Of a stretch of 64,000 nucleotides of DNA, positions 6,091 through 43,205 are shown in pieces (position 1 is the stretch's first letter; each line of letters opens with the position of its first letter). Under the pieces are notes generated by a model, which saw only the letters and a list, made by a program, of their open reading frames with translations, searched no databases and had not been told where the DNA came from. Position numbers and translations under genes: made by a program. This DNA is from Halorhabdus utahensis DSM 12940 (GTDB lineage Archaea; Halobacteriota; Halobacteria; Halobacteriales; Haloarculaceae), in the NCBI RefSeq assembly GCF_000023945.1, contig NC_013158.1:1736001-1800000 (forward strand), written 5' to 3'.

Positions 6091-7017
6091 ATGGTTTCGA
6101 CCGACGCTGCCGAAGGCGTTCTCCTCGGGTTGGCCTGCGGTGACGCACTCGGACGACCGCTCGAATTCACACCTTGCGACGAGATCGCTCGACAGCACGG
6201 CACTGTCACGGAGATGCTCGCAGACGGCACGCACGGCAAGCCAGCGGGGACCGTCACCGACGATACCGAACTGGCCCTTCGGATCGCACGGAGTCTCGTC
6301 GAGAACGAACGCTTCGACGGCCAGGATATCGCCGACCGGTTTCTGGAGTGGTTCGAAGACGACCCGTTCGACATCGGGTTGATGACCGCCGACGCGCTCC
6401 GGGAGTACAGCCACGGGACGGACTGGCGGTCGGCCGGCCAGGAGGTCTGGCAACACCGCGCCGAAGGATCGAACGCCGGGAACGGGAGCGTCATGCGGTG
6501 TGCGCCCCACGCGATTGCCTTCGCCGACGACCCCGACACGCTCGCCAGGGTGAGCAAGCAATCCTCGGCGATCACCCATCACGACCCGCGATGTCAGTAC
6601 GGCTGTGCCATATTGAACGAGACGATCGCCGGCTATCTCCGCGGCGAGGACGATCCGTTCGGTGACGCGCTCGCTCGTGTCGATGGAGAGGCGCCGGACG
6701 AACTGGTCGAGACGCTTCGGTTGGTCCCGGATTTGATCGACGACACCGACCTCGAAACCAGCGGCTACGTCGTCCACACGCTGCAGACGGCGCTATACGA
6801 CGCGTTGACAGCGGACTCGGCCGAAGCGGCGATCGTGTCGGCCGTGAATCGCGGTGGCGATACGGACACGATTGGTGCCGTGGCTGGTGCTGTCGCCGGC
6901 GCTCGATTCGGGGCGGAGTCACTCCCCGATCGCTGGCTCGATCCGCTCGACTATCGCGAGGACCTGTCCTTGCTCGCACGGTTGCTCGCGACGACAGAAA
7001 TCAGCGCGTCGGTCTGA
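6091..7017 (+). CDS. ADP-ribosylglycohydrolase (DraG/ARH family)
   Basis: 308 residues. Family signatures are visible in order: GLACGDALGRPLEF near the start, TVTDDTELALRIA (metal-binding TDDT), AGNGSVMRCAPHA and NRGGDTDTIGAVAGAVAGA (second metal site GGDTDT). The enzyme hydrolyses ADP-ribose from proteins, nucleic acids or small molecules using two magnesium ions. The ATG at 6091 is chosen because the family N-terminus begins there; GGTTTAACGG at about 6058-6067 is a plausible promoter box. Codons upstream in this frame overlap the helicase in another frame and are not credible. The neighbours are a helicase and, 700 bp on, a Doc-like protein, so a role reversing a toxin-type modification is possible but unproven. 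Confidence 0.85.
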   Translation: MVSTDAAEGVLLGLACGDALGRPLEFTPCDEIARQHGTVTEMLADGTHGKPAGTVTDDTELALRIARSLVENERFDGQDIADRFLEWFEDDPFDIGLMTADALREYSHGTDWRSAGQEVWQHRAEGSNAGNGSVMRCAPHAIAFADDPDTLARVSKQSSAITHHDPRCQYGCAILNETIAGYLRGEDDPFGDALARVDGEAPDELVETLRLVPDLIDDTDLETSGYVVHTLQTALYDALTADSAEAAIVSAVNRGGDTDTIGAVAGAVAGARFGAESLPDRWLDPLDYREDLSLLARLLATTEISASV

Positions 7018-7164
7018 TCCATCTTCTCCATCAGGTATCCTAAGCATAGGCGACGGGTGCCATTCCGTCGGCTGTCTCGCGAAAATCCCTAATCAGCGAA
7101 CTCGTGAAATTCCGGAAGTAGCGCGCCTTTGCTTACGTTTCTGGCAGTCCCTCGTTGATTTGCA

Positions 7165-7365
7165 ATGTCCCGAAACGACCCTGTGTTCGGGGACGGCTTC
7201 GATCGACCAGTCTGTCCGAACGGCCACACCGCGTGGACGCGGTCGAACGGCCACTACTGGTGTCACGACTGTAGTCGTCTCCACGGCGCAAACCCCGAGT
7301 TCGACTCCCTGCGAGACCCGGAGACCGGCGACAGGATCGACCCAATCGAGGTGAACGCCTCGTGA
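7165..7365 (+). CDS. Small zinc-ribbon protein
   Basis: 66 residues. CPNGHTAWTRSNGHYWCHDC presents a C-x3-H ... C-x2-C arrangement typical of a small treble-clef or zinc-ribbon fold. The rest is short and polar. The stop overlaps the next start (GTGA at 7362), so the two genes form a coupled pair. The family is not recognised; such proteins in haloarchaeal accessory regions are often nucleic-acid-binding. The N-terminus is supported by ATG 7165, directly before the first conserved residues. Confidence 0.6.
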   Translation: MSRNDPVFGDGFDRPVCPNGHTAWTRSNGHYWCHDCSRLHGANPEFDSLRDPETGDRIDPIEVNAS

Positions 7366-7556
7366 CCGGTGATGTGCCGGAATCGACCCGGAAGTACGCC
7401 CGGGAGAACCGCGAACAGCTCGAGTACATCCTTCGGCACGGTAGCAGCATCGAGATCCGGGCCTACGCGGCCGCACTGCTCATTCGTGGGCTGTCCGATC
7501 CGGAACTCGATCAGGTCGTCGAGGAACTGGAGACAGGTCGCGAAGTACTGACTTGA
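7362..7556 (+). CDS. Small helical hypothetical protein coupled to the zinc-ribbon gene
   Basis: 64 residues with a GTG start overlapping the preceding stop. The sequence is amphipathic and mostly helical (STRKYARENREQLEYILRHG, then AYAAALLIRGLSDPELDQVV). No catalytic or metal-binding pattern is seen. Coupling suggests the pair acts together, for example as a DNA-binding unit with a small helical partner. I do not recognise the family. Confidence 0.55.
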   Translation: MTGDVPESTRKYARENREQLEYILRHGSSIEIRAYAAALLIRGLSDPELDQVVEELETGREVLT

Positions 7557-7647
7557 TGTGAGTTGTCGCGCTCTGATCTTCGACCCTCATTCATCGTTCT
7601 CAAGGCCCAGCACTAGGTTTATACTACTCGATGGACTCTATTCCAGT

Positions 7648-7752
7648 ATGAGCCTCGAAGAGACAGTCGACTACCTCGCCGAGGAACTCGACCTCGAGCG
7701 GAGTGAACACGTTCGCGAGGTCGGTCAGTCAGTCGCAGAGCTTCGCGACTGA
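7648..7752 (+). CDS. 34-residue acidic small protein, convergent with the Doc-like gene
   Basis: The frame MSLEETVDYLAEELDLERSE... encodes 34 residues. A TATA-like GGTTTATAC at 7616-7624 lies about 28 bp upstream of ATG 7648, fitting a leaderless gene. The upstream codons to 7558 would then be untranscribed. The predicted product is a single acidic helix. Its stop (7750-7752) directly abuts the stop codon of the opposite-strand Doc-like gene, with no gap. It could be a tiny antitoxin-like or regulatory peptide, but convergent placement is atypical for that. The function is unknown. Confidence 0.45.
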   Translation: MSLEETVDYLAEELDLERSEHVREVGQSVAELRD

Positions 7753-8640
7753 TTAGAACATTTCTCTGAAGTCTCGTTCGACGAGGCCGTCCTCGAGATA
7801 CGTGATGAACTCTTGTTTCGTTGGCCCCTGACGGTCGAGCAGGTCATCACGCTCTGCACGCTGTAGGACTGCCTGAGCGAACTCCGTACAGTGCGATTCG
7901 TGCAGCCCAGCGTACTTCGAGAGTGCTTCTCGCCAGTGCATATCCAGTTCGAATTCGGCCAAACGGATTTGGATGCCATCTTTCCGTTCGACGAGGTCGA
8001 CATCAAGCTCTGCGAGCGTTTTGAATCGGACGTTGTTTCGACGGACGGTGATGAGTCGCTTCGAATCGACAATGTAGGGGTCAACCCACTCTCGCCAGGC
8101 GCTGTCGTCGACGTGAGTTCGTGGCATCGCGAAGTCCGGTTCCACACTTTCAATACAGAATTGAAGCATCGCGATCCCGGTACGATGATTCGCATTTGGG
8201 AGGGAATGCCGGAGAATCAAGTTCGACATCACTTCCCCAGCAACCTTTGGAAGTGGTCCACCCCAGGACACGTGATCGAGTGCCTGTTGGATCTTTTGCG
8301 GCTCGAACTCCTTGTAGAGCCGAAACTCATCCGCTTCTCGAACATCTACAGCGGCTTCCAGCAGCTCCACTAACCGGAACGTTACGACTTTTCCAGCACG
8401 GGGGAGGGTACGAATTCGTTCGGTCAGCCAGTTTCTATCGAAGTCGATCTCGTGTGCTGATTCGACCTCTTTATCCCCCTCATAGAGCACATACACTGGT
8501 GTTTCGAACGGATACCCGATCAGCTTGGTCGACTCGTCGGATTGCTCTCGCCGGGAACGAATCTCCGCCGGTGACGCCGAGCTAAATGTAAGAGAGAAAT
8601 TTTCGGCCTGTGGGTGATGATAATAGACGAGCCGATCCAT
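7753..8640 (-). CDS. Doc/Fic-like protein
   Basis: 295 residues on the minus strand. The only strong motif is HSLPNANHRTG (residues 145-155). It matches the Doc variant of the Fic signature H-x-F-x-D/N-A-N-K/G-R, with the catalytic histidine 145 and arginine 153 kept and leucine in place of phenylalanine. Fic-fold proteins transfer AMP, or phosphate in Doc, to target proteins. Residues 1-130 carry no recognised domain, and the C-terminal 100 residues are helical and charged. No Phd-type antitoxin precedes the gene; an inhibitory helix motif (S/T)xxxE(G/N) is not evident. Classification rests on one motif, so the confidence for function is moderate. Confidence 0.55.
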   Translation of the reverse strand: MDRLVYYHHPQAENFSLTFSSASPAEIRSRREQSDESTKLIGYPFETPVYVLYEGDKEVESAHEIDFDRNWLTERIRTLPRAGKVVTFRLVELLEAAVDVREADEFRLYKEFEPQKIQQALDHVSWGGPLPKVAGEVMSNLILRHSLPNANHRTGIAMLQFCIESVEPDFAMPRTHVDDSAWREWVDPYIVDSKRLITVRRNNVRFKTLAELDVDLVERKDGIQIRLAEFELDMHWREALSKYAGLHESHCTEFAQAVLQRAERDDLLDRQGPTKQEFITYLEDGLVERDFREMF

Positions 8641-8796
8641 CTCACTGTGTATTCATGTTGCGCGGCTAAAGTAGTCCTGTTTTATTCTGAATTCACAGAC
8701 CCGATTTTGCGACTGGCCGCTTCTGGCACCTCTGGAACCACCACGCCCGATCTTACCCACTCGTGCAGCGTACGAGTGCCGGGTGCAATCCGAATG

Positions 8797-10050
8797 TCAA
8801 CTGTCGCTCAGCGCTTCACGGAATCGTTCGGCGTCTTCGAGGAGATCAGGCCGGTTCTCGAAGACCGTCATCGCCTCTTGGGCTTTCTCGATGTCGTCGA
8901 GGAGGTCGGGATCCTCCTTGATGAGGGTCAGAATGGAGTCCCGGAGGTCCTGCTCTTCGGCCTTGATCTCCTCGACGGCGTCGTGGGAGGTCGCCTGGCC
9001 GCACCAGACACAGAAGTCCTTCTCGCGGGGAGTCTCCTTCCCGCAACGTGGACAGTCCATCGGCGCGATGGGATCGGGCTCGTCGTCCTCGTCGATTTCG
9101 GCGCCGTGGATCTTCGCGAGTTCGCGGTCGGCGTCCTCGCCGAAGACGCTGACGTAGCGCGCCGCCACGTCGCTGCCGCGGACCCACCCGTGGTGATCCT
9201 CGATGTGGGCCTGGTTCATGCCCTGCGAGGCGAGATAACTCGCGGAACTCTTCCGGAAGTTGGTGAACGTGACGGGCTTGTTCACGTCCGCGTCCTCGGC
9301 GGCGCCCTCGAGGATCTTCGTGAACATCCGGTAGGAGAACTCCTCGGCACGGTTCAGCTTGCACCACAGCGGCGCGTTCGGATCGTCCCGCGCGGGATGA
9401 TCAGCGAGCCACCGCTGGAGATAGGGAACGGACGGAATCAGCGTGACCGTCCGCTGACCGGTCTTGCCCTGGAAGGTAAGCTGGTAGCCGTGGCGGTGGT
9501 CGGCGACGTCGCCGATGGTGAGACTGCGGATCTCGCCGCTGCGCGCACCGGAGTCCCACGCGACGGCGATCAACGCGGCGTCCCGACTGTGGTTCGTCGC
9601 CTCGATCATCGGGAGAACGTCTTCCTCCCAGTGGAGCATGTCGCCGGGGTTCGGCGCGGGGTCGTAGTTGTTCGAGGTGCCGGACGGTACCCACTCGATG
9701 CTCTCGGGCGGTTCGTCGCCGTTCTCGTCGGTCGTTCGCCGTCCGAAGACGCTGAGTGCGACACGGTAGTCCCGGTTCGTCTCCTCGTTGTCGTAGGTGC
9801 GGTTGATCCAGCGAACGAGTTCTTCGGTCGCCTCGCGGTCGTCCAGCGCGTCGGCCACCCCGCCGACGTGTTCGGCCATCCGCGTGCAGTGCCGGAGGAG
9901 CTTGAGGTGCCGGTGGTCGCTGTACTCGGTCTGGAGCAAGAAGAGCTGGTCACTGAACTCGAGCAGTGCCGCCCTGTCGTCCTCGCTGATCTCTTCGGAA
10001 TCCTGGATACGCTCCCGGAGCGTGTCGATCTGATCGCCCGGATCGGTCAT
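8797..10050 (-). CDS. Tyrosine recombinase/integrase with internal zinc ribbon
   Basis: 417 residues from ATG 10050. An upstream frame to 10071 is rejected because the promoter box overlaps it. The N-terminal SAM-like domain (about 1-110) is followed by a catalytic domain with SGARSGEIRSL (Arg 170), QGKTGQR (Lys about 196), FTNFRKSSASYLASQG (Arg 266), DHHGW and ARYVSVFG (Tyr 299 nucleophile). The usual histidine of the H-x-x-R box is asparagine (Asn 264). C-terminally a CPRCG...CVWCG zinc ribbon (Cys 333, 336, 347, 350) and acidic helices follow. It would integrate or excise an element. Its promoter adjoins a tRNA-like 3' end at 10098-10121. Confidence 0.85.
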   Translation of the reverse strand: MTDPGDQIDTLRERIQDSEEISEDDRAALLEFSDQLFLLQTEYSDHRHLKLLRHCTRMAEHVGGVADALDDREATEELVRWINRTYDNEETNRDYRVALSVFGRRTTDENGDEPPESIEWVPSGTSNNYDPAPNPGDMLHWEEDVLPMIEATNHSRDAALIAVAWDSGARSGEIRSLTIGDVADHRHGYQLTFQGKTGQRTVTLIPSVPYLQRWLADHPARDDPNAPLWCKLNRAEEFSYRMFTKILEGAAEDADVNKPVTFTNFRKSSASYLASQGMNQAHIEDHHGWVRGSDVAARYVSVFGEDADRELAKIHGAEIDEDDEPDPIAPMDCPRCGKETPREKDFCVWCGQATSHDAVEEIKAEEQDLRDSILTLIKEDPDLLDDIEKAQEAMTVFENRPDLLEDAERFREALSDS

Positions 10051-10073
10051 ACCAGTACATGGGGCTCCCACCC

Positions 10074-10083
10074 CTTTAAATTA
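10074..10083 (-). promoter_or_regulatory. TATA box of the integrase gene
   Basis: On the minus strand the sequence is TAATTTAAAG, centred about 28 bp before ATG 10050. This fixes that start and predicts a leaderless transcript. It lies between the integrase and the tRNA-like fragment. Confidence 0.5.
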
Positions 10084-10097
10084 CGGCATGTGAACTA

Positions 10098-10121
10098 CCG
10101 GTTCAAATCCGGCCCTTGGCT
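10098..10121 (+). other. tRNA 3'-end-like fragment, candidate attachment site
   Basis: CCGGTTCAAATCCGG folds as a T arm (four base pairs around the TTCAAAT loop) and is followed by CCTTGGC and T, the size of an acceptor 3' strand plus discriminator base. No D arm, anticodon arm or 5' acceptor strand (expected GCCAAGG) is found upstream, so it is not an intact tRNA. Haloarchaeal tyrosine recombinases often use tRNA 3' ends as attachment sites. Its place 48 bp from the integrase start supports an att remnant. I noticed no second copy in the window. Confidence 0.5.
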
Positions 10122-10147
10122 CTCACCCTTTTCCTGAGATCCAAAGA

Positions 10148-13758: not shown

Positions 13759-14334
13759 TCATCCACTTTCGCGCGCGATCTCGTCGAAGCTATCGAGGAG
13801 TTTCGCCGCCTCACCTAGCAGTCGGCGCGCGCGTCGCTCCAGCCGCCGTGACTGTTCCTGTCTTCGCTGATAGGCCTCGTGAGACTCGCGCTGCTCAGCC
13901 GGAAGTTCGGCCGCGATAACCTGGCGCTTGGCTTCGACGCTGAAGTACTCGCCGAGCGTCGCGTACCCGAGGATCGTACACTGCTGGGTCACGGCTGCTC
14001 GGACGTCTTCGCGATCGACCGGCTTGCAGAGATAGTCGTCGAACGGCATGTCGAGGATGTCGAAGTCTGGATCGATTGCCGTCACCATGAGCACTCGCCC
14101 CTGGAAATCCATCGCCGCGAGTTCATCGAGCACGTCATCGCCGGACATGCCGGGCATGTGCCGATCCAGTAGCACTACGTCGATCTCGCGGTCGCGGACC
14201 ATCTCCAGGGCCGCCTCGCCATCGTAGGCGGTTTCGACGTTACAGAGTCCGCGCAGGCGGAGCGCGTAGGCGTCGGCGACCTCCCGCTCGTCGTCCACGA
14301 CCAGCGCGTTCGGGAGGTTCTCGGTGTCCCCCAT
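13759..14334 (-). CDS. HalX response regulator
   Basis: 191 residues. Residues 8-120 form a receiver domain: NALVVDDERE gives the acidic pocket, VVLLDRHMPGMSG the phosphorylated Asp 57, MVTA the switch threonine and DDYLCKPVDRED the lysine. The C-terminal 65 residues are a helical, arginine-rich HalX domain, found with receivers in haloarchaea and presumed to transmit output. CATTTATGG on the minus strand at 14360-14368 is a TATA box about 28 bp upstream of the start. No kinase is in the same operon; the pair at 15119-18450 on the other strand is the nearest candidate partner. Confidence 0.85.
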   Translation of the reverse strand: MGDTENLPNALVVDDEREVADAYALRLRGLCNVETAYDGEAALEMVRDREIDVVLLDRHMPGMSGDDVLDELAAMDFQGRVLMVTAIDPDFDILDMPFDDYLCKPVDREDVRAAVTQQCTILGYATLGEYFSVEAKRQVIAAELPAEQRESHEAYQRRQEQSRRLERRARRLLGEAAKLLDSFDEIARESG

Positions 14335-14538: not shown

Positions 14539-14958
14539 ATGTCAAGCGAACCAGCCCGATCCCGAATTGGTCCCACCTCCCCGGCAACGACCAACCGAGA
14601 TGACGTATGGAATCACGACGATCCGACGTCGCTGCTCGACACACTCGGCGACGAATACGCTCGGGCAGCCTTCGAAGCCGTCCTCGACCACCCGAAGAGT
14701 GGACGGGAAGTCGCGGCGGCCACTGCTATGTCCCGTCCCACGGCGTTCCGACGGCTTAACGCGCTCGTCGATCTCGGCTTGCTCGAAACCGAAAACCGGA
14801 TCGAGGCCGAAAACGGTCACCATCACAAGGTCTACCGTCCCGTAATCGACTCGTTGGCAGTGACGATCGACGACGGCGGGATCGAGATTGTGGTCGAATC
14901 CGACCGGCCGACAGGATCGCCCTTCGACGCGCCGCGGCCGATCCCGGCGAACGACTGA
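14539..14958 (+). CDS. ArsR-like winged-HTH regulator
   Basis: 139 residues. The core DDPTSLLDTLGDEYARAAFE, followed by SGREVAAATAMSRPTAFRRL and the wing, is an ArsR/MarR-like DNA-binding domain. A short beta-rich tail (SLAVTIDDGGIEIVVES) follows. It is a clear paralogue of the protein at 24762 (shared LLGD-Y-R, RELxxATxMSRPTxxRRL). Both lie beside histidine kinase genes, here 160 bp before the 7TM pseudokinase on the same strand. A regulatory link with the kinases is inferred from that repeated association. The N-terminal 28 residues are low complexity. Confidence 0.75.
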   Translation: MSSEPARSRIGPTSPATTNRDDVWNHDDPTSLLDTLGDEYARAAFEAVLDHPKSGREVAAATAMSRPTAFRRLNALVDLGLLETENRIEAENGHHHKVYRPVIDSLAVTIDDGGIEIVVESDRPTGSPFDAPRPIPAND

Positions 14959-15118: not shown

Positions 15119-16771
15119 ATGGTGCTCTATACGGCACTCCGGCTCGGAACGACAACGTTCGCGGCACTGGTAGCCGTCGCGCTGGTGGTGGTTCTGCTCC
15201 GGTATCGTGATCGGGCCAGCGCCCGGGCACTGCTCGGTGTCGGGGTGTTCACAAGCGTGGGATCGCTCTTGCACCTGCTTGTGGCCGATCTCACATCGCC
15301 GAACGCAGCGATCGCAGTGACCGGCTGGGATGTCGAGGCGTCGGCGTGGGTCGTGATCGGCACGACCACCACAGTGATCGCCGGCGGGCTGTGGGTACTG
15401 TTCGCCTTTCGATACACGGGTCGATCCCGGCGGGTGGTCCAGGCGACCGGCGCGATCATAGGCGCGATCTCGATCGGTGCCGTCATGACCGCGGCACTGG
15501 CGGTCAGGGATCCGTCCCCCCTCACATTCCAATTGCTGACGGTGACGTTCCTCCTCATGGGATTTCTCGTCACGATCGGGGTATTTTTGCTCCTGTGGAC
15601 GTCGATCGACCAGCAAGCAGTCCCGCTCCGTGAGCCGTTGTTGCTAGCAGGTGGCGCGATCGTATTGTTGTCCGGAAGTTTCGTCGCACAGATCTTCGAA
15701 CGACCAGTCATCCGCCCGGCACTGACGGCGATCGCCGGCGGCTTGTTTCTGTTCGCCGTTGTCCGGTATCCGGTTTTCGAAACGCCACCCGCCGTACGGG
15801 TGCTCGGGCGGGATCGCGTCGTCGGTGAACTGGCTGACGGAATCCTCATCGTCGATCGGAGCGGGCGGGTTCGAGACCTCAATCCCGCCGGCGAACGGCT
15901 GTTCGATGTCTCGCGGGCATCGGTCCTCGAAGAAGCGTTCGAGTCACTGTTTCCCACCGCGATCAGTCTCACGGACGTGGCGAAGAGAGCGGACCCAATT
16001 CGGATCGAACTGCCGGACGGAACGACGGTGTCCGTGACCGCCGATCCGGTCACTGACGGACGGGGTCGTCAAGTCGGCCACCTGATAACCTGTACGGACG
16101 TGACCGCCCGACAGCGGAGGGAGGAACAGCTCACGTTGCTCAGTCGCTTCGTCGTCGAGGTGATTCAGGGACGAATGACTGCCGTGGCCGACGAGGTAAC
16201 AGAGATAGAAAACACGTCGTTCGACGACGCTCCGGAGGTCGCCGGTCGGATGTGGGAGCGAACGACGCAGCTGACGACACTCGTCGCCCAGACGCGCTCG
16301 ATCGAGCGAGCTATCGCCGAGAACGGGGTCCGCCCGGACGAGCGACTTGCTGTCGGCGCCGTCCTCCGGGAACTCCGCGATTCGATCACTACCGAAGCAG
16401 GCCCGAAGATGGCGGTCGATACCCCAGCGGACGCTATCGACACGGCTGTCAACTCGGCGCTCCTGGCGTCGCTGCTCGAACCAGTGCTCGAAGACGCGTG
16501 CGCCCATGCTGTGACGCAGGTCGAAGTCACCGTCGAAACTGACCCCCCGACGGTTCGGATCATCGACGACCGACCGGACGTCAACGATCGCGCAGAGAAG
16601 GGGTCCGACGCCGACCTCTCGCTTGCGGTTTCGCGCCTGGCACTCGACCAACTCGGGGGCCATCTTTCCGTCGAGCGGACCTCGGAGGGACGACGGGCGG
16701 TTGTCGTCGTCCTCCCGTCGGGTGACACGCGGGAAACGGACCGACCACACACAACAGGGGGTGACGCGTGA
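15119..16771 (+). CDS. Seven-helix sensor with degenerate histidine kinase module (pseudokinase)
   Basis: 550 residues. Residues 1-225 hold about seven transmembrane segments of the 7TM kinase N-terminal type, followed by a PAS domain (ELADGILIVDRSGRVRDLNP, about 238-330) and a kinase-like region. The phosphoacceptor box reads LSRFVVEVIQGRMTAV with no histidine. The N box reads LLEPVLEDACAHA, with aspartate for the key asparagine. The G1 position reads IIDDRPDVND, lacking DxGxG. The protein is therefore unlikely to autophosphorylate. Its stop overlaps the start of an intact kinase of the same architecture (TGATG at 16769-16773). A heteromeric sensor pair is a reasonable inference. Confidence 0.8.
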   Translation: MVLYTALRLGTTTFAALVAVALVVVLLRYRDRASARALLGVGVFTSVGSLLHLLVADLTSPNAAIAVTGWDVEASAWVVIGTTTTVIAGGLWVLFAFRYTGRSRRVVQATGAIIGAISIGAVMTAALAVRDPSPLTFQLLTVTFLLMGFLVTIGVFLLLWTSIDQQAVPLREPLLLAGGAIVLLSGSFVAQIFERPVIRPALTAIAGGLFLFAVVRYPVFETPPAVRVLGRDRVVGELADGILIVDRSGRVRDLNPAGERLFDVSRASVLEEAFESLFPTAISLTDVAKRADPIRIELPDGTTVSVTADPVTDGRGRQVGHLITCTDVTARQRREEQLTLLSRFVVEVIQGRMTAVADEVTEIENTSFDDAPEVAGRMWERTTQLTTLVAQTRSIERAIAENGVRPDERLAVGAVLRELRDSITTEAGPKMAVDTPADAIDTAVNSALLASLLEPVLEDACAHAVTQVEVTVETDPPTVRIIDDRPDVNDRAEKGSDADLSLAVSRLALDQLGGHLSVERTSEGRRAVVVVLPSGDTRETDRPHTTGGDA

Positions 16772-18450
16772 TGATCCGGATCGCCTGGGTCGCCGGTGCC
16801 CTCGTCGTGCTCGTGACCGGCGTCATCGTGGCCGGTCGGACTGCACGACGACACGATCATCCGGGGGTGGTGCCGTACGCACTACTGGCCGTCCTGCTTG
16901 CCGGGATGGGCGCAACCATCGCGTTCAGCCGGTCCGGTTTGGTGCCGATCGAACTCGATGCGATCAGCGAGTTGCTTCTCATCGGCGGGTACGCGTTCGC
17001 CTCGTTGCTGTGGATCGCGTTCGTCTTCGAGTACACCGGCCGCGGCCCGGCGATGACGCCGCGTCGATGGGCGGGGATCGTCCTCCTTGGTGGTCTGACA
17101 GTCACGAGCACGGCGGTCACCTGGGCGCAGCAGACGGCGCGACTACAGGTGGGCCTGCTCGGCCAGCTGTCGTCCCTCACGACGTTCGTCCTGCAGGTGG
17201 CTGTGTTTTCACTTGGTCTGCTCGGTGTGGTGTTACTCGTGCGCTCGGCGGTGACGTACGACGATCTGGCGCGTGACTCAGCAGTGGCCTTTGCCCTCAC
17301 AGGCGTCGGGATCACGTTTCTCCCGATCGCGATCGGCTACGGCGGACAACTCGGTGGCGACTCGATCTATCGGGTCGTCTTCGTTCAACTCGCGGCCGTC
17401 GTCGGCGTCTTGGCCTGGACCGCGTTCGGCACCGACGCGTTCGAACGAGGGGCAGCGGCGGGACACCTCGCCCGGAAGACGGCCCTCGACGCGATGTCCG
17501 TCCCCGTACTCGTCGTCGATCGCGAAGATCGACTCCTCGACGTGAACCAGGCCGCCGCAGAGACGTTCGACGTCGAGACGACCCGGCTTCGGCATCACTC
17601 GCTCGCCGACGTGACGGACGTGCCCGAGGATCCACCAGCGGACCGCCCGGTCACGCTTCGGACCACGACCGGGAGACGGGAGTTCGCCGTCGACCGGACC
17701 GAGATCACCGGCACAGACGGCGATGTGCTCGGGCGTGCCTACCGGTTCCGGGACGTTACGGACCGCAAGACACGCGAACAGCGTCTGCAGGTTCTCAACC
17801 GAGTAATCCGACACAATCTCCGGAACGATCTCGACGCGATTCGCGGGTTCGCCGAACCGATCCGCGACGAGGAACTCCCTGCCGGAGAGGCGTCACAGTA
17901 TTTCGATCGGATCGAAACACTCGCGACAGAGCTGGTCGATCTCGCCGACGCAGTCGACCGGTCCCAACGCGTGCTGACGGGGGACCCCCTCGAACGGACC
18001 CAGTGTGATCTCGTCACGATCGCCCGATCGGTCGCTGGCAGCGCGACTGACGCCGACGTGACGCTGGATCTTCCCGGGGCGGTTGTCATCCGATCCGATC
18101 CTGACGCCATCGAATCGGTACTCACGGAACTGCTGGACAATGCCATAACCCATACCGATCGGACGCCGCCGTCGGTAACGGTCTGCATCCACTCGACGGC
18201 AGACGGCGGACGGATCGAGGTGGCAGACGACGGACCGGGAATCCCGCCCGAAGAGCGGAACCCTCTCCTCGAGGGCGAGGAAACACCGAGTCGACACAGT
18301 AGCGGAATCGGTCTCTGGCTGGTCTCCTGGACGGTGACGCGGCTGGGCGGCGAGCTGGCGTTCGACGAACGCGATCCCCGTGGGAGCGTGGTGATCGTCG
18401 ATCTGCCCGATCTGGAGCGATCGAACCAGTTTGGGCCGCCGGACACTTGA
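16771..18450 (+). CDS. Seven-helix membrane histidine kinase (intact)
   Basis: 559 residues. The first 215 residues contain about seven membrane helices; a PAS domain follows (ALDAMSVPVLVVDREDRLLD, about 235-335). The phosphoacceptor box is LNRVIRHNLRNDLDAI with His 348. The ATP site has LLDNAITHT (N box), VADDGPGIPPEER (G1) and SSGIGLWLVSW (G2). ATG 16771 overlaps the stop of the pseudokinase; a GTG three bases earlier is the alternative. It should sense a membrane or intracellular signal through 7TM/PAS and phosphorylate a response regulator. No receiver gene is in the operon; the HalX protein at 13759 is the closest. Confidence 0.85.
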   Translation: MIRIAWVAGALVVLVTGVIVAGRTARRHDHPGVVPYALLAVLLAGMGATIAFSRSGLVPIELDAISELLLIGGYAFASLLWIAFVFEYTGRGPAMTPRRWAGIVLLGGLTVTSTAVTWAQQTARLQVGLLGQLSSLTTFVLQVAVFSLGLLGVVLLVRSAVTYDDLARDSAVAFALTGVGITFLPIAIGYGGQLGGDSIYRVVFVQLAAVVGVLAWTAFGTDAFERGAAAGHLARKTALDAMSVPVLVVDREDRLLDVNQAAAETFDVETTRLRHHSLADVTDVPEDPPADRPVTLRTTTGRREFAVDRTEITGTDGDVLGRAYRFRDVTDRKTREQRLQVLNRVIRHNLRNDLDAIRGFAEPIRDEELPAGEASQYFDRIETLATELVDLADAVDRSQRVLTGDPLERTQCDLVTIARSVAGSATDADVTLDLPGAVVIRSDPDAIESVLTELLDNAITHTDRTPPSVTVCIHSTADGGRIEVADDGPGIPPEERNPLLEGEETPSRHSSGIGLWLVSWTVTRLGGELAFDERDPRGSVVIVDLPDLERSNQFGPPDT

Positions 18451-18536: not shown

Positions 18537-19886
18537 ATGACCCTCCATCGACGACGCTTCCTGGAACTCGGCGCGGCAGCGACCACCGTCGCACTCGGCG
18601 GCTGTCTCGGATTCGGCGACGGACCACCACTCTACACCGAGTGGATCCCGGTACGGGACGGCGGCGTTCGCGTCGGCTACCTGGATTTCAGTATCGCAAG
18701 CGAGGCAGAGAACGGTGACGAGCTATTGCCGTTGATTCTCCCGGCGGAGGCGAACAGCAGTTCCAGACAGGTCCTGACAGAAGTCTCGGGATTCGATGAC
18801 ATCGACGATCCACTGCTGACCTGGCCGCTCGAAGTCGGCGGCCGACTGGTCGCCGGAGCCTTTCTGTCGGTTGCCGTCTCCGGACTCGGATATCTCGTCG
18901 ATCCGGAACGACCGGACCGCGGGATAGAGGAGCTGTTCATGGCGGACACCGTCGCGGTCGGACGCGGGGAGATCGATCTCTCCGAGGCCACCGAGACGCT
19001 TCGCTCGGGAGCCGAAGGCATGGTCGGCGGCGTCCCGTTCGAGGAAACAGGAACGGTCGAGGACTTCACCCTGTACGAACCGACCGGTGACGGGGAACTC
19101 GATGGCGTCACGGCGATCAGCGAGCAGGCAGTCCTGGTGGCTGACACCCGCGAAGAGATCCGACGCGTCGTCGAGACCGCGGGGGGCGACCGAACGCGGG
19201 CGATCGAAGACGGGACAACGTTCGAGTGGCTGGTCGAGGCGGCCGGCGACGGCCATCTGGCCGGCGGTTGGGTGGGGCCGGTCGATCTCGAAACCGTGTA
19301 CTTCGGTGACCCGGCCGAGCGTCCGGTGGACGAACTCCTCCGGCCAGACGACGACGTCCTCGGGTCGGTGACCTTCGACGCCGACGACAGTGAGGTCACC
19401 GCCGAACTCGCCGCTCGGCGGCCACTCACGGACTCGGCGGCCGAACAGTTCGAATCGCGATTGGGTTCCGCGAGCGAGGACCGTTCGATCTCTATCGAAG
19501 ACGAGCAAGTTACCGCGACCGGGACCTACAGCGAGGGCGTTCTCGATTTCGAACTCACCAGTCCTGATCGAACGACGACCACACGCCCCGACCCGAGTGA
19601 GCCCGTCGATCCCCCCGAGGCAGTCGCGCAAGCAGTACCTGCCGATGCCTTCGAGTTCGACTACGAGGCCGAGAAAGATCGTGTGAAGGTCGGGATTACG
19701 AAGGATCTCAACGTGGAGAAAGTGGTTTTCGAAGCCGTCGTCTCGGGCTATGAGGCCTCGACCACCACACCGCAGGCGGACATGTACATGTATCTCTACG
19801 TCGATCCGGACGGCGACACAGTGGCGGTTACCGTCACCGTCGACGGCACGTCCGGTGTCGTCGCTCGACGGGAGTTTCCTGAGTGA
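18537..19886 (+). CDS. Tat-exported lipoprotein, haloarchaeal family of unknown function
   Basis: 449 residues from ATG 18537. LHRRRFLELGAAATTVAL followed by GGCLG gives a twin-arginine signal and lipobox, which decides the start against a longer frame from 18447. The mature protein is acidic, with no membrane segments. The middle region resembles surface proteins that measure or bind a ligand (VTAISEQAVLVADTREEIRR), and a C-terminal beta-rich part contains DMYMYLYVDPDGDTVAV. No enzyme motif is visible. It follows the kinase pair after 86 bp on the same strand and might be a surface component tied to it. It ends 9 bp from the convergent RDD gene. Confidence 0.7.
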   Translation: MTLHRRRFLELGAAATTVALGGCLGFGDGPPLYTEWIPVRDGGVRVGYLDFSIASEAENGDELLPLILPAEANSSSRQVLTEVSGFDDIDDPLLTWPLEVGGRLVAGAFLSVAVSGLGYLVDPERPDRGIEELFMADTVAVGRGEIDLSEATETLRSGAEGMVGGVPFEETGTVEDFTLYEPTGDGELDGVTAISEQAVLVADTREEIRRVVETAGGDRTRAIEDGTTFEWLVEAAGDGHLAGGWVGPVDLETVYFGDPAERPVDELLRPDDDVLGSVTFDADDSEVTAELAARRPLTDSAAEQFESRLGSASEDRSISIEDEQVTATGTYSEGVLDFELTSPDRTTTTRPDPSEPVDPPEAVAQAVPADAFEFDYEAEKDRVKVGITKDLNVEKVVFEAVVSGYEASTTTPQADMYMYLYVDPDGDTVAVTVTVDGTSGVVARREFPE

Positions 19887-21205: not shown

Positions 21206-22780
21206 ATGGACACCGACTTCGAGCGCGCACCGATCGGGGTTCTCGAAGTGAGTCCGGACGGCGTCGTCCGCGACGGCAACGCCACGGCAGCGTCTGTCCT
21301 TGACGTAGCCCCTGACGCCGTCGCCGGCGAGCCGATCGGGCGTGTCTTTCCCGAATCTGTCGAGGGCCAGGTCCCGGGGGCGTTCGAGACCCCGCCGGAC
21401 GCGGAGCAGTCCTTCGAGGCGTACTATCCCGACCTGGACAGGTGGCTCGTGGTCGATCTCGTCCCCGCAGCGGAAGTCGTCTACGTCTACCTCCGGGACG
21501 AAACCGACGCACACCGGCGCGAGCAGCAGCTCGACTCGCTTCGATCGGACCTCCGCCGGCTGACGATCGGGAACGAACTCCTCGCGGACGTGCTGGGCGA
21601 CCTCGTTTCCGCCTCGACGCGCGAAGAGATCGCCGAAACCATCTGCCGACAGCTTGGTGAGACTGATATCTACGAGTTCGCGTGGGTCGGCGAGCGCGCG
21701 GTCGGCTCCACGGAGATCGTACTGCGGGCCGCTGCCGGTACAACAGGGCGCACGCTCGACCGGATCGAAACCGCTCTCGATGGCGACGCCGACCTGCCGG
21801 AGTTGCGCGCGATCGAGCGGGGCGAACCGACGGTCGTCGAGTCACTCGGCGCGGACGAATCCGTCCCGGAAACGATCCGCCGGGCGGCCTTCGCCGACGG
21901 ATTGGGGTCGCTGCTTGCCGTCCCACTGACCTACGGCTCGAGCGTCTACGGCGTCGTCGGCGTCTACGCCACCGAGAAGGACGCCTTCTCCGAACGCGAA
22001 CGGGAGAGTTTCGGAACCGTCGGGACGATGGCCGGGTTCGCTATCAAAGCGGCTCGCAACCAATCGCTGCTCACTGCCGAGCGGGTCGTCGAACTCACGC
22101 TCCGGGTGTCAGATCCCGCGACGCCGTTCGTCGCCGCGGTTTCCGACACCGACACCCGGATCGACGTGACGGGTGTGATCCCGCAGGGAGAGGAGCTACT
22201 CTGTTACGTCGAGACCGAGACTGACCAACGGGGGCCCGAGGCGGTCGCAACTGCGTTGGCGGAGCACGAATCGGTCGTTGCGACGCGAACAGTCGGGAAA
22301 CACGACGACGGCGGATCGATCGAACTCCGCCAGCGGGCCGAGACACCGCTCGGACAACTCCTGAGTCAGGGCGGGACAGTTCGGTCGGCCACGTTTGGTC
22401 CAGATGGGGACCGGGTCGTCGTCGAACTCCCGCTGTCGGAAGACGTCCGCCGGATCGCGGACGCGATCACGCGCCGGTACGACGCCGAGGTACTCGCCAA
22501 GCGGGAACGCCGGCGGGACGAACGGACAACCGGGGAGATCCGGGACGGGCTGACCGCTCGACTGACGGACCGCCAGGAGGAGGCGCTTCGCACCGCGTTC
22601 TTCGCGGATTACTTCGAATCGCCACGGGGAAGTTCCGCCGAAGAAGTCGCTGATGCCCTGGGAATTACTGGACCAACGCTGCTTCACCACCTTCGGGCAG
22701 GACAGCGGAAACTCCTGGCAGAACTCTTCGAGGCGACAGATCGGCGGCTCGACCCTGACCGATCGTCGGACGGGACCTGA
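21206..22780 (+). CDS. Bat-like regulator with PAS, GAF and HTH_10 domains
   Basis: 524 residues. Residues 1-105 form a PAS domain (RAPIGVLEVSPDGVVRDGN), then a GAF domain at about 125-290 (FADGLGSLLAVPLTYGS ... YGVVGVYA). A bacterio-opsin-activator-associated region covers 300-420, and the C-terminal HTH (LTDRQEEALRTAFFADYF ... ADALGITGPTLLHHLR) covers 450-510. Such proteins act as soluble one-component sensors controlling transcription in haloarchaea, typically responding to redox, light or oxygen. No cofactor ligand can be named with confidence from the sequence. The gene is apparently monocistronic and followed by the convergent AIM24-family gene. Confidence 0.85.
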   Translation: MDTDFERAPIGVLEVSPDGVVRDGNATAASVLDVAPDAVAGEPIGRVFPESVEGQVPGAFETPPDAEQSFEAYYPDLDRWLVVDLVPAAEVVYVYLRDETDAHRREQQLDSLRSDLRRLTIGNELLADVLGDLVSASTREEIAETICRQLGETDIYEFAWVGERAVGSTEIVLRAAAGTTGRTLDRIETALDGDADLPELRAIERGEPTVVESLGADESVPETIRRAAFADGLGSLLAVPLTYGSSVYGVVGVYATEKDAFSERERESFGTVGTMAGFAIKAARNQSLLTAERVVELTLRVSDPATPFVAAVSDTDTRIDVTGVIPQGEELLCYVETETDQRGPEAVATALAEHESVVATRTVGKHDDGGSIELRQRAETPLGQLLSQGGTVRSATFGPDGDRVVVELPLSEDVRRIADAITRRYDAEVLAKRERRRDERTTGEIRDGLTARLTDRQEEALRTAFFADYFESPRGSSAEEVADALGITGPTLLHHLRAGQRKLLAELFEATDRRLDPDRSSDGT

Positions 22781-22805: not shown

Positions 22806-23462
22806 TCAGGCGTGTTCCTCGTACGGTTGGACGATGACGAAGCCGCCGGGATCGGTGAACTGCATCTGGAAGCGCTCGCCGGACTCCTGGCCAATCATGT
22901 CCGAAACGTTGGTGTTGACCTCGACATCCGGCGTTGTCGAACTCCAGGCGACTGTCGCGCCTGGGTCGGTGGTGACGGGCGGTTCCATCACGACCGGGTC
23001 GCCATGTGTGGTGAGGGCGACGTGACCCGGTCCCTGAAGCGAGACGTTGGTGAAGCCGCCGGCGAACGCCCCGGCGAGACTGTCGATCTCGGTGATCTCG
23101 TAGGACAGCCCGGACTCGAAGGCCAGCACGTCCTCGCCGTTGACGGTGATCGATTCGCCGTCGTCGAGTCGGAGGAGCTGGACTTCCTTTTCGTGATCGG
23201 CGAGATAGAGGTGGCCTGTCCCCTCGACGCGCATGATCGGCGTCCCCTCGCCGGTCGCGGCTTCCTTGATGAACCCAGTGATGCCGCCCTCCGGTGTTGC
23301 CTGGCCGGTGAACGAGAGGTCGCCCGTGTAGGCGACCATCGAACCGGCTTTCGCCAGCAGCGATCCCTCGACTGCCACGTCGAGGGTGTATCTATTTTCC
23401 AAGCTGAACGTCTCGTCTGTCTCTGTCGGTGCGTGTTCGGCAGTGAATTCGTCTACATCCAT
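22806..23462 (-). CDS. AIM24-family protein
   Basis: 218 residues, all-beta and acidic. LLAKAGSMVAYTGDLSFTGQ and GTGHLYLADHEKEVQLLRL match the TIGR00266/AIM24 family. Its archaeal and bacterial members are of unknown biochemical role; the yeast namesake is mitochondrial. The glycine-rich second half (GAFAGGFTNVSLQGPGHVAL) fits the repeated beta-barrel halves expected. No signal peptide or membrane segment is seen, so it is presumably cytoplasmic. It stands between a Bat-like regulator and a kinase. Confidence 0.85.
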   Translation of the reverse strand: MDVDEFTAEHAPTETDETFSLENRYTLDVAVEGSLLAKAGSMVAYTGDLSFTGQATPEGGITGFIKEAATGEGTPIMRVEGTGHLYLADHEKEVQLLRLDDGESITVNGEDVLAFESGLSYEITEIDSLAGAFAGGFTNVSLQGPGHVALTTHGDPVVMEPPVTTDPGATVAWSSTTPDVEVNTNVSDMIGQESGERFQMQFTDPGGFVIVQPYEEHA

Positions 23463-23562: not shown

Positions 23563-24558
23563 TCAACTGGTCTCGATGCCAGTCACCTCGAAGCGAGCGC
23601 CGCCGTTCGCGGACTCGGTGACGGTGACCGACCAGCCGTGCAGATCGACGACTCGGGCGACGATCGACAGGCCGAGCCCGGTTCCGTGGTCGTCGGTGCT
23701 GAACCCCGGATCGAAGACGCGAGCCTGCTGTGCCGATGGAATTCCCTGTCCATCGTCGGCGACATAGAATCCCTTGGCTGATTCAAGCGGACCGACGGTG
23801 ACGGTCACGGCGCTCCCGCCGTGCTGGATCGAGTTGCGGAAGAGATTCTCGAACAGCCGTCCCAGGCGGTCGGGATCGGCGATGATACTGGGTAAGGACC
23901 CCTTCAGGACGATGTCGGCGTCGTCGGTATCGACGTTCGTCCACGCGTCCTCCACGACTCCCGACAGCTCGACCATCTCGTCAGGTTGGATCACGTCGGA
24001 GCCGCTCGCCAGCGTCAGCACGTCCTCGACGATCCGCTCCATCCGCTCGTGGGCGTCGGCGACGTGCTCGAAGTGGTCCGCCTCGCCGGTCTCTCGGGCC
24101 GCTCGCAAGTGTGCTTTGGCGACGTCAAGCGGGTTCCGGAGGTCGTGACTGATCACGCTCGCGACGTGATCGAGCCCGATCTCGTCCGCCTCTCGGGCGG
24201 CCTCCTCTGGAAGAGGGGTGAACAGGAGCACTCCGTCGGTGTCCCCGTTTTCTGGAACGGCCCGCAGGAGATACCGTGTATCTGGCTCCCTCTCAGATCG
24301 GCCTCTGTTTGATTCGGCGATGATCTTATCGGCTTCCGTTCCGACGACAGTCGGGTCTTCCGGGCCCAGCACGACCGAGAGATCGAATGTCTCGAACAGT
24401 GTCGTCACTGGTTCGCCTGGCTCAATCGACCCGAAAGTCCGCTCGAAAGCCTCGTTCACCGCCTGGACGACCTGCGTTCCGTCGTCGTCGCTGAGCCGAC
24501 AGACCGGATCGGGCCACTCCTCAATCGCAAACGATCCCGTGGCTCCGTTGGCAGTCAT
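23563..24558 (-). CDS. Soluble PAS histidine kinase
   Basis: 331 residues from ATG 24558. An upstream frame reaches 24690 but shows no domain. A divergent PAS-like domain covers residues 10-115, then HVASVISHDLRNPLDVAKAH gives the H box (His 138). The ATPase has LFENLFRNSIQHG (N box), VADDGQGIP (G1) and HGTGLGLSIV (G2), all intact. No transmembrane segments occur, so it should sense a cytoplasmic signal. Its start region faces the ArsR-like gene at 24762 on the other strand, about 200 bp away. This mirrors the HTH next to the kinases at 15-18 kb. Confidence 0.85.
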   Translation of the reverse strand: MTANGATGSFAIEEWPDPVCRLSDDDGTQVVQAVNEAFERTFGSIEPGEPVTTLFETFDLSVVLGPEDPTVVGTEADKIIAESNRGRSEREPDTRYLLRAVPENGDTDGVLLFTPLPEEAAREADEIGLDHVASVISHDLRNPLDVAKAHLRAARETGEADHFEHVADAHERMERIVEDVLTLASGSDVIQPDEMVELSGVVEDAWTNVDTDDADIVLKGSLPSIIADPDRLGRLFENLFRNSIQHGGSAVTVTVGPLESAKGFYVADDGQGIPSAQQARVFDPGFSTDDHGTGLGLSIVARVVDLHGWSVTVTESANGGARFEVTGIETS

Positions 24559-24761
24559 GCGTCTCGTGTCCCATGCTTCGGCCACTGTGGTACTCCGAAC
24601 GAGCACGGTCCGGCGGACGTCATCGGGTGGTTTGTGTTCGTCGCACCGACCTAAAGTCCTGCAGGCTAGTAATACAGATGCGGGGGACACGGACGGACGC
24701 CAGCCAGGAGTTGGGATACCTAGCCTACGAACTCAGGGGTACGGCACACAACCGTCCAGCC

Positions 24762-42504: not shown

Positions 42505-43056
42505 TCACGCTTCGAAGTGGCCGGGATAGCGGTTCTCGATGGATTTCAGCTCCGACTCCAACTGCTCGATTCGCTCGACCAGCTCCTGGAACTCCCGGCT
42601 ATGCGTGAGCTCGGTGCGGTCCTTTTCGACCTCGAGGACGTTTCGCTTGACGCGCGCACTCGAGAGTTCTCGCTGGAGGCGTTCGTACTCGTCGAGAGCA
42701 CAGAGCTTCTCGACGGTCGCTTCGATGTCTTCGGCACCGACTGGTTTCGTCCGGTAGTCGTCGATTCCCAGCTCCAGGATGTCGTAGTCAGGCGCGACCG
42801 CCGTGACTAACGCGACCCGACAATCCAGCCCACGTTCCTCGATGACTTTCAGCACTTGCTCTCCTGATAGCCCTGGCATCCGCCGGTCGAGCAACACCAC
42901 GTCGACGGCTGGATCCAGCGCTTCGAGGGCTTGCTCACCGGTGTAGGCGACCCGGACCTCGTAGTCGCTGTCGAGCAGACGCGCGTATCCGTCTGCCGTA
43001 TCGCGCTCGTCCTCGACGATGAGGACGGTCGCGTCTCCAGCACCCGTCGATGACAC
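42505..43056 (-). CDS. HalX response regulator
   Basis: 183 residues from GTG 43056. A TATA-like GTGTTTTGG about 28 bp upstream (near 43084) supports this start over the longer frame to 43122. The receiver has VLIVEDERDTADGY, VVLLDRRMPGLSG (Asp 57), LVTA and DDYRTKPVG (Lys 104). The C-terminal HalX part is a long charged coiled coil (LVERIEQLESELKSIENRY). It is divergent from the membrane kinase at 43206 across about 150 bp, so they are a likely two-component pair. It is a clear relative of the regulators at 13759 and 45874. Confidence 0.88.
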   Translation of the reverse strand: MSSTGAGDATVLIVEDERDTADGYARLLDSDYEVRVAYTGEQALEALDPAVDVVLLDRRMPGLSGEQVLKVIEERGLDCRVALVTAVAPDYDILELGIDDYRTKPVGAEDIEATVEKLCALDEYERLQRELSSARVKRNVLEVEKDRTELTHSREFQELVERIEQLESELKSIENRYPGHFEA

Positions 43057-43205
43057 GTTACTGACATTGGTCCGCGTTACCAAAACACTTCCGGCGGGGC
43101 CGAGGGGTCGCGCCGGGAACACTGCCCAGTATCATGGTAGATACTCACGCACATAGCCTTATGATTGCCCGTCAGGTATTCGTGGTAACGAGTGGATCGA
43201 ATCGC

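Follow-up and report, generated by a model that had tools for sequence, protein, structure and literature searches.

We describe a pair of overlapping sensor kinase genes in the archaeon Halorhabdus utahensis DSM 12940, located in a 64,000-nucleotide stretch (contig NC_013158.1, positions 1,736,001 to 1,800,000; hereafter the window) of a 3,116,795-base single-contig genome. The first gene, P0001, encodes a pseudo-histidine kinase, in which the predicted fold of the dimerisation and phosphotransfer (DHp) and catalytic, ATP-binding (CA) domains is kept and the catalytic residues are gone in all orthologues. The second, P0002, encodes an intact kinase of the same seven-transmembrane (7TM)-PAS architecture. 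Below, A denotes the family of the first gene (P0001 and its relatives) and B that of the adjacent kinase (P0002 and its relatives). We consider it probable that the pair forms an obligate asymmetric two-subunit histidine kinase, with A as the non-catalytic and B as the catalytic subunit of a putative heterodimer. Fixed residue losses, strict pairing of the genes, their co-inheritance and their association with a conserved gene cluster all support this reading.

Organisation of the gene pair

P0001 occupies positions 15119..16771 of the forward strand and encodes 550 amino acids; its assignment as a 7TM-PAS pseudo-histidine kinase draws on the sequence, Pfam, alignment and a structural model. 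The 7TM domain lies at approximately 15119-15772, followed on the same strand by the PAS (~15815-16117), DHp (~16103-16324) and CA-like (~16340-16717) domains. P0002, an intact 7TM-PAS histidine kinase of 559 amino acids from its ATG, follows on the forward strand at 16771..18450. Stop and start codons meet within GTGATG at 16768..16773, giving either a 1-nt overlap (TGATG) or, with an alternative GTG start for P0002 at 16768, the 4-nt GTGA overlap found in most pair loci. An earlier note on this DNA had placed the two genes at these positions, joined by TGATG, and had described their shared 7TM-PAS architecture and a set of kinase motifs; each of these is present in the sequence or in the Pfam matches.

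The domain matches themselves are asymmetric. P0001 belongs to the HisKA_7TM family (PF16927), scoring 33.0 bits over a cut-off of 28.6, and matches PAS_4 at 36.3 bits. Its Pfam scan returned no HisKA match, and HATPase_c reached just 15.2 bits, below the cut-off of 26.4. P0002 matches HATPase_c (67.7 bits) and PAS_8 (27.6 bits), with HisKA at 23.7 bits (below the cut-off of 26.9). Its HisKA_7TM match is marginal, at 27.5 bits in the protein scan and 30.0 bits in the genome scan, either side of the same cut-off of 28.6. No NCBIfam equivalog scored above cut-off for either protein.

Catalytic residues are lost from every A and kept in B

A gap-free alignment from the DVT motif places E347 of P0001 (codon 16157..16159, forward strand) opposite H348, the phosphoacceptor histidine of P0002 (codon 17812..17814, forward strand). 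P0001 also has Asp in place of the N-box Asn, and has lost the glycines of both the G1 and G2 motifs. The earlier note had considered the whole G1 motif lost; its glycines are indeed gone, but the G1 Asp stays (IIDDRPDVN). Of the residues expected in an active histidine kinase (phosphoacceptor His, N-box Asn, G1 DxGxG and G2 GxG), P0001 thus has none in complete form. P0002 has all four, as had been claimed.

The same division holds across the relatives. In a combined alignment of 25 complete pairs, the phosphoacceptor His, the N-box Asn and G2 are retained in 0/25 A proteins. The G1 Asp survives in 9/25 and the G1 Gly pair in three, one of which is the divergent locus L150, where the motif falls in a poorly aligned insert and G1 cannot be aligned with confidence. 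By contrast, B retains His, N-box Asn, G1 Asp and G2 in 25/25, and all five features, including the G1 Gly pair, in 24/25; the sole exception (L114) has Ala at the second G1 Gly. Among the other 7TM-PAS kinases aligned, His is present in 67/67 and all five features in 63/67. Conservation of the pair with the same losses, which the earlier note had proposed as a check, is therefore what the relatives display. The observation that would have spoken for simple decay, an A homologue with intact catalytic residues, was found in none of the 25 complete relatives.

Counting the copy cut by a contig end and leaving out L150, the 25 A copies have Glu (10), Asp (9) or Gly (6) at this place. L150 also has Glu, so that an acidic residue stands there in 20 of 26 copies overall. 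Tyr, the residue found at this place in DivL, occurs in none of 25 A proteins.

The two genes occur together

A search of 59 genomes, including that of H. utahensis, with P0001 as query gave close homologues (62-66% identity) in five of the others and more remote ones (32-35%) in another three, and a P0002 homologue directly adjoins each of them. A profile built from nine P0001 orthologues was then run against 392 genomes of the order, where it set apart a group in 23 genomes (at least 286 bits, the next score being 206). Two further pairs (in G265 and G259, the latter being L150) were found by gene context. In total, at least 26 A copies come from 25 genomes, which span six families and 12 genera of the order; a contig end truncates one copy. 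Order-wide searches scored three candidates per genome, and pair counts are consequently lower bounds. The cut copy (A_L121) was left out of trees and pair counts, and two truncated B copies were also dropped. A related-locus search of the genome contigs returned three loci.

Pairing is strict. B lies directly downstream of A in 25/25 complete loci, with a 4-nt stop/start overlap (ATGA or GTGA) in 23, a 1-nt TGATG overlap in one and neither in another. A profile for B found 23 places at B-level scores (at least 399 bits) in the 392 genomes, and all are paired; the next score, 345 bits, is an ordinary kinase without a pair. At these scores, with three candidates scored per genome, no unpaired B turned up; the search missed the divergent partners in G265 and G259.

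Selection on A and the trees of A and B

The substitution pattern shows A to be under purifying selection as a protein. Whole-gene omega (the ratio of non-synonymous to synonymous substitution rates, NG86) in three genome pairs is 0.369, 0.291 and 0.263 for A, and 0.275, 0.183 and 0.270 for B. In the DHp domain of the closest genome pair the two are alike (0.165 for A vs 0.179 for B), whereas in the CA domain A is relaxed yet still below 1 (0.39-0.57 vs 0.17-0.26). Mean pairwise identities over 24 loci follow the same pattern: 34% in A vs 33% in B for the 7TM domain and 42% vs 42% for PAS, but 41% vs 56% for DHp and 27% vs 49% for CA, the least conserved part of A.

One might cite the faster evolution of A's CA domain for the decay of a redundant copy in this strain alone. 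Such decay is ruled out by losses in 25/25 complete relatives across six families, omega well below 1, open reading frames, and sensor domains and a DHp core that have been kept.

Distance matrices of A and B from 24 pairs correlate at r = 0.958 (7TM and PAS) and 0.823 (DHp), although the former value is expected of any co-inherited neighbours and so supports pairing rather than contact. In a first tree of the 7TM and PAS regions, A and B each form one clade (SH-aLRT 95 and 100), with A placed outside B plus eight intact kinases at weak support (83 and 73). In a second, larger tree, from which ten long-branch rows were left out, the A clade has a support of 97 and a clade of 24 B proteins 93; uniting all 25 B rows needs one change, with a support of just 60, and the L150 B is unplaced. 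Since A is one clade, its catalytic loss is most parsimoniously a single old event. The earlier note had seen a duplication in the pair. A and B are indeed two clades of one kinase family, but their grouping as sister clades is neither shown nor rejected (approximately unbiased test, p = 0.528).

Predicted structure and DHp residues

In AlphaFold single-chain models of P0001 and P0002 (mean pLDDT 77.9 and 77.3; pTM 0.46 and 0.48, leaving the domain arrangement unsure), both proteins begin with long helices, of which A has seven, and continue with a PAS domain, a pair of DHp helices and a CA fold. They differ at the ATP lid, where the A model has no helix and low confidence and the B model has a lid helix. 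The DHp-CA part of the A model matches kinases generally, including DivL (4q20, Z 15.0) and RetS (7n0e, Z 14.4; 6dk7, Z 13.9). Within the DHp of A, most hydrophobic core positions keep a hydrophobic fraction of 0.9 or more, and positions 347-352 around the His place, the exposed H-box, are replaced, lost or variable. At three DHp alignment columns (353, 396 and 397) the majority charges in A and B are opposite.

Two further observations concern the sensor half of A. At the end of the PAS domain, just before the DVT motif, C325 of P0001 is Cys in 22/24 A proteins, where B has Phe, Leu or Ile and other kinases mostly Leu or Phe; this conserved cysteine may bear on sensing. Residues 1-227 (~15119-15799) have class C G-protein-coupled receptors as their best structural matches (9o38, Z 16.2; 8iep, Z 15.8). 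Helical bundles reach Z ~13-14 without kinship, according to the structure-search tool's own warning, and a relation of the modelled 7TM domain to these receptors is only a lead.

The pair in a conserved gene cluster

The pair is flanked by regulatory genes that recur elsewhere. Upstream, a REC-HalX response regulator (13759..14334, reverse strand) belongs to a family present in 20/25 pair loci; its phospho-acceptor D57, together with D14, D15, T85 and K104, is invariant in 15/15 aligned proteins. Between it and the pair lies a winged-helix (IclR/MarR-like) protein (14539..14958, forward strand; 17/26 loci searched). Downstream on the forward strand, a lipoprotein-like protein of 449 amino acids without a Pfam match (18537..19886) is a cluster member in 15/26 loci searched; its family comes after the pair in close relatives, with two copies at some loci. 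Further on are a PAS-GAF-BAT-HTH_10 (Bat-type) regulator (21206..22780, forward strand), an AIM24-family protein (22806..23462, reverse strand; 11/26 loci searched) and a soluble PAS histidine kinase (23563..24606, reverse strand).

The Bat-type HTH_10 regulator, REC-HalX and soluble PAS kinase make up a cluster that is widely conserved in the order. Bat-type genes occur in the same 20/25 pair loci as REC-HalX (one copy cut), and a search with this family gave 69 matches scoring 543 bits or more, spread over 68/392 genomes of the order. A comparable set of histidine kinase, Bat-type and response regulator genes, HVO_1356-1358, is reported to affect motility in Haloferax volcanii (PMC7824242).

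This cluster carries the pair, or a single kinase, or neither. Of 39 core stretches without the pair, 25 have one or more complete single 7TM-PAS kinases. The proportion depends on how stretches were chosen: it is 20/21 among those mostly picked for a known nearby kinase, and 5/18 among the others, in which a sixth single kinase is cut by the stretch end. The first 20 pairless core stretches listed were mostly chosen for a nearby kinase match, and L150, then among them, proved to hold a pair. The single kinases have intact catalytic residues, apart from a kinase in G019 and individual substitutions in G2. In that G019 locus (L077), a degenerate 7TM-PAS kinase (6117-7748, reverse strand), with the His kept and the N-box Asn and G1 Asp lost, adjoins an intact 7TM-PAS kinase (7798-9477, forward strand). 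To judge from their residues, the two may be a complementary form of asymmetric pair that arose independently.

Neighbourhoods were called with a home-made codon-score gene caller, which seems to include at least one antisense frame (window 8794-10137). Elsewhere in the window, 8797-10071 (reverse strand) looks by eye like a tyrosine recombinase or integrase. A second response regulator (42505-43122, reverse strand) and kinase (43227-45215, forward strand) resemble the cluster's REC-HalX and soluble kinase.

How the pair might work

In the mechanism we propose, A and B would be co-translated from their overlapping genes and would associate through their 7TM, PAS and DHp regions. A would contribute its sensor domains and DHp dimer core, having lost normal ATP binding and phosphate acceptance, and B alone would bind ATP and phosphorylate its own histidine. 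The phosphate would then most likely pass to the neighbouring REC-HalX response regulator, a likely acceptor because of its position and its intact receiver residues. A's part would be to supply a second input and to set the on/off state of B. Physical contact in a heterodimer, phosphorylation in cis, the phosphate target and the sign of regulation are all inferred. The earlier note had suggested a regulatory partner or heterodimeric sensor; strict pairing, the 4-nt overlap, co-inheritance and the DHp core would all fit this. Its division of labour, in which the pseudokinase senses and the kinase signals, is too simple. The catalytic set is indeed confined to B, but the 7TM and PAS domains are equally conserved in both, and so both A and B probably take part in sensing.

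Several observations weigh against an obligate heterodimer. Strict pairing and equal trees would also fit proteins of the same pathway that make no contact, and the intact catalytic set of B would permit it to work as a homodimer. The oppositely charged DHp columns are a lead for pairing specificity read from the alignment, and L150 deviates at position 353, where A has Gln and B has Lys. Moreover, five loci (in G008, G313, G237, G123:C404 and G186) have the pair away from the core cluster. In G008 the core is ~17 kb from the pair, and the G123 pair lies on a 6-kb contig; in G186 the pair is elsewhere and the core cluster has its own intact single kinase. REC-HalX is not in the stretch at 5/25 pair loci, and is consequently not certain as the target.

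The alternative that best survives is an inhibitor like RetS, in which B would be active as a homodimer and switched off in the A/B heterodimer until a signal reaching A set it free. Among sensor kinases that silence another by forming a heterodimer with it, RetS, acting on GacS, is the best known (PMC6944256, PMC12675982). A's DHp-CA model matches both RetS structures, and B has everything required for activity as a homodimer. However, translational overlap in 23/25 loci suggests equal amounts of an obligate partner, not a titrating inhibitor, and the 392-genome search, scoring three candidates in each, yielded no B without A at B-level scores. We regard an inhibitory A as fairly unlikely. 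The sharpest fork between it and an active heterodimer lies in the chemistry: as A has no histidine, within an A/B dimer B must either phosphorylate itself in cis, or the dimer is the off state.

Less probable still, A might act as DivL does. An A homodimer would read the phosphorylated form of a regulator, or some other protein, with its degenerate DHp-CA region, and would communicate with B without a heterodimer. In the Caulobacter pathway a kinase catalytic output domain is described as serving as an input (PMC4211667), and the fold that A keeps has DivL 4q20 among its matches. Against this, CA is the least conserved part of A. Residues beside the phosphoacceptor histidine serve phosphotransfer in kinases, and it is these positions (347-352) that are lost or variable.

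A final alternative is co-inheritance of A and B as members of one pathway in which A would signal on its own, without phosphate, to the Bat-type or HalX protein. Genes for both regulators accompany most pairs, yet in other genomes the same cluster is found with one intact kinase, so that the cluster needs no separate function of A; we think this very improbable.

Returning to the asymmetric two-subunit kinase, a bolder version of it is quite possible, though we advance it tentatively. The pair would be an ancient, obligately heterodimeric archaeal kinase that replaces a single kinase in a conserved cluster, the acid that usually stands at the His place acting as a possible permanent phospho-mimic and the opposite DHp charges enforcing A-B over A-A and B-B association.

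Comparison with known systems

Histidine kinases are usually portrayed as homodimers. Bacterial kinases with catalytically impaired or inhibitory partners are known. We found no archaeal pseudo-histidine kinase pair in the open-licence literature, a scope that does not establish absence from print. The main text of a census of archaeal two-component systems contains neither '7TM' nor 'inactive', and the passages retrieved from it describe no such pair (PMC5847659).

A close parallel is FasB-FasC of Streptococcus, where, as here, one locus contains two kinase-like genes; in the FasBCA system both feed one response regulator (PMC12675982). FasB and FasC are reported to heterodimerise and not to homodimerise, and one is a proposed pseudokinase (PMC12675982). 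The division of residues differs, as FasC is described as keeping and needing its phosphoacceptor His, with a dispensable kinase domain (PMC12675982), whereas in our pair the His and the ATP site are both missing from A and both present in B. The pseudokinase thus cannot supply the phosphoacceptor in our pair, His being absent from 25/25 complete A proteins. The sensor domains are also different, as is the domain of life.

RetS and GacS of Pseudomonas are not known to be an overlapping gene pair, unlike A and B. They resemble our proposed pair in that one sensor kinase regulates another through a heterodimer, but both are reported also to homodimerise, and RetS inhibits (PMC6944256, PMC12675982). 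ChrS/HrrS of Corynebacterium is a case in which a catalytically dead kinase heterodimerises with its active paralogue; that pseudokinase is reported to have arisen by frameshift in laboratory evolution (PMC9491836), whereas A/B is a fixed and probably ancient pair.

A further likeness is to DivL of Caulobacter. DivL has Tyr at the His place, against Glu, Asp or Gly in A, and is not known to be encoded beside its kinase partner. Like A, it is described as a conserved pseudo-histidine kinase with a DHp-CA fold that controls another kinase (PMC4211667).

Also close are the haloarchaeal HisKA_7TM (PF16927) kinases, the family to which both P0001 and P0002 belong. Ordinary members are single, intact and presumably homodimeric, and single members occur with the same cluster. 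Few archaeal two-component pathways beyond taxis are reported to be understood (PMC6944256). The HalX output domain is described as lacking a documented function (PMC5847659), so a partner kinase for a HalX protein would help there too. With a dead subunit fixed in one locus family and a single intact kinase in relatives with the same cluster, these systems offer a natural comparison, allowing direct tests of the origin of asymmetric kinases, of whether autophosphorylation is in cis, and of the way in which a sensor integrates two inputs.

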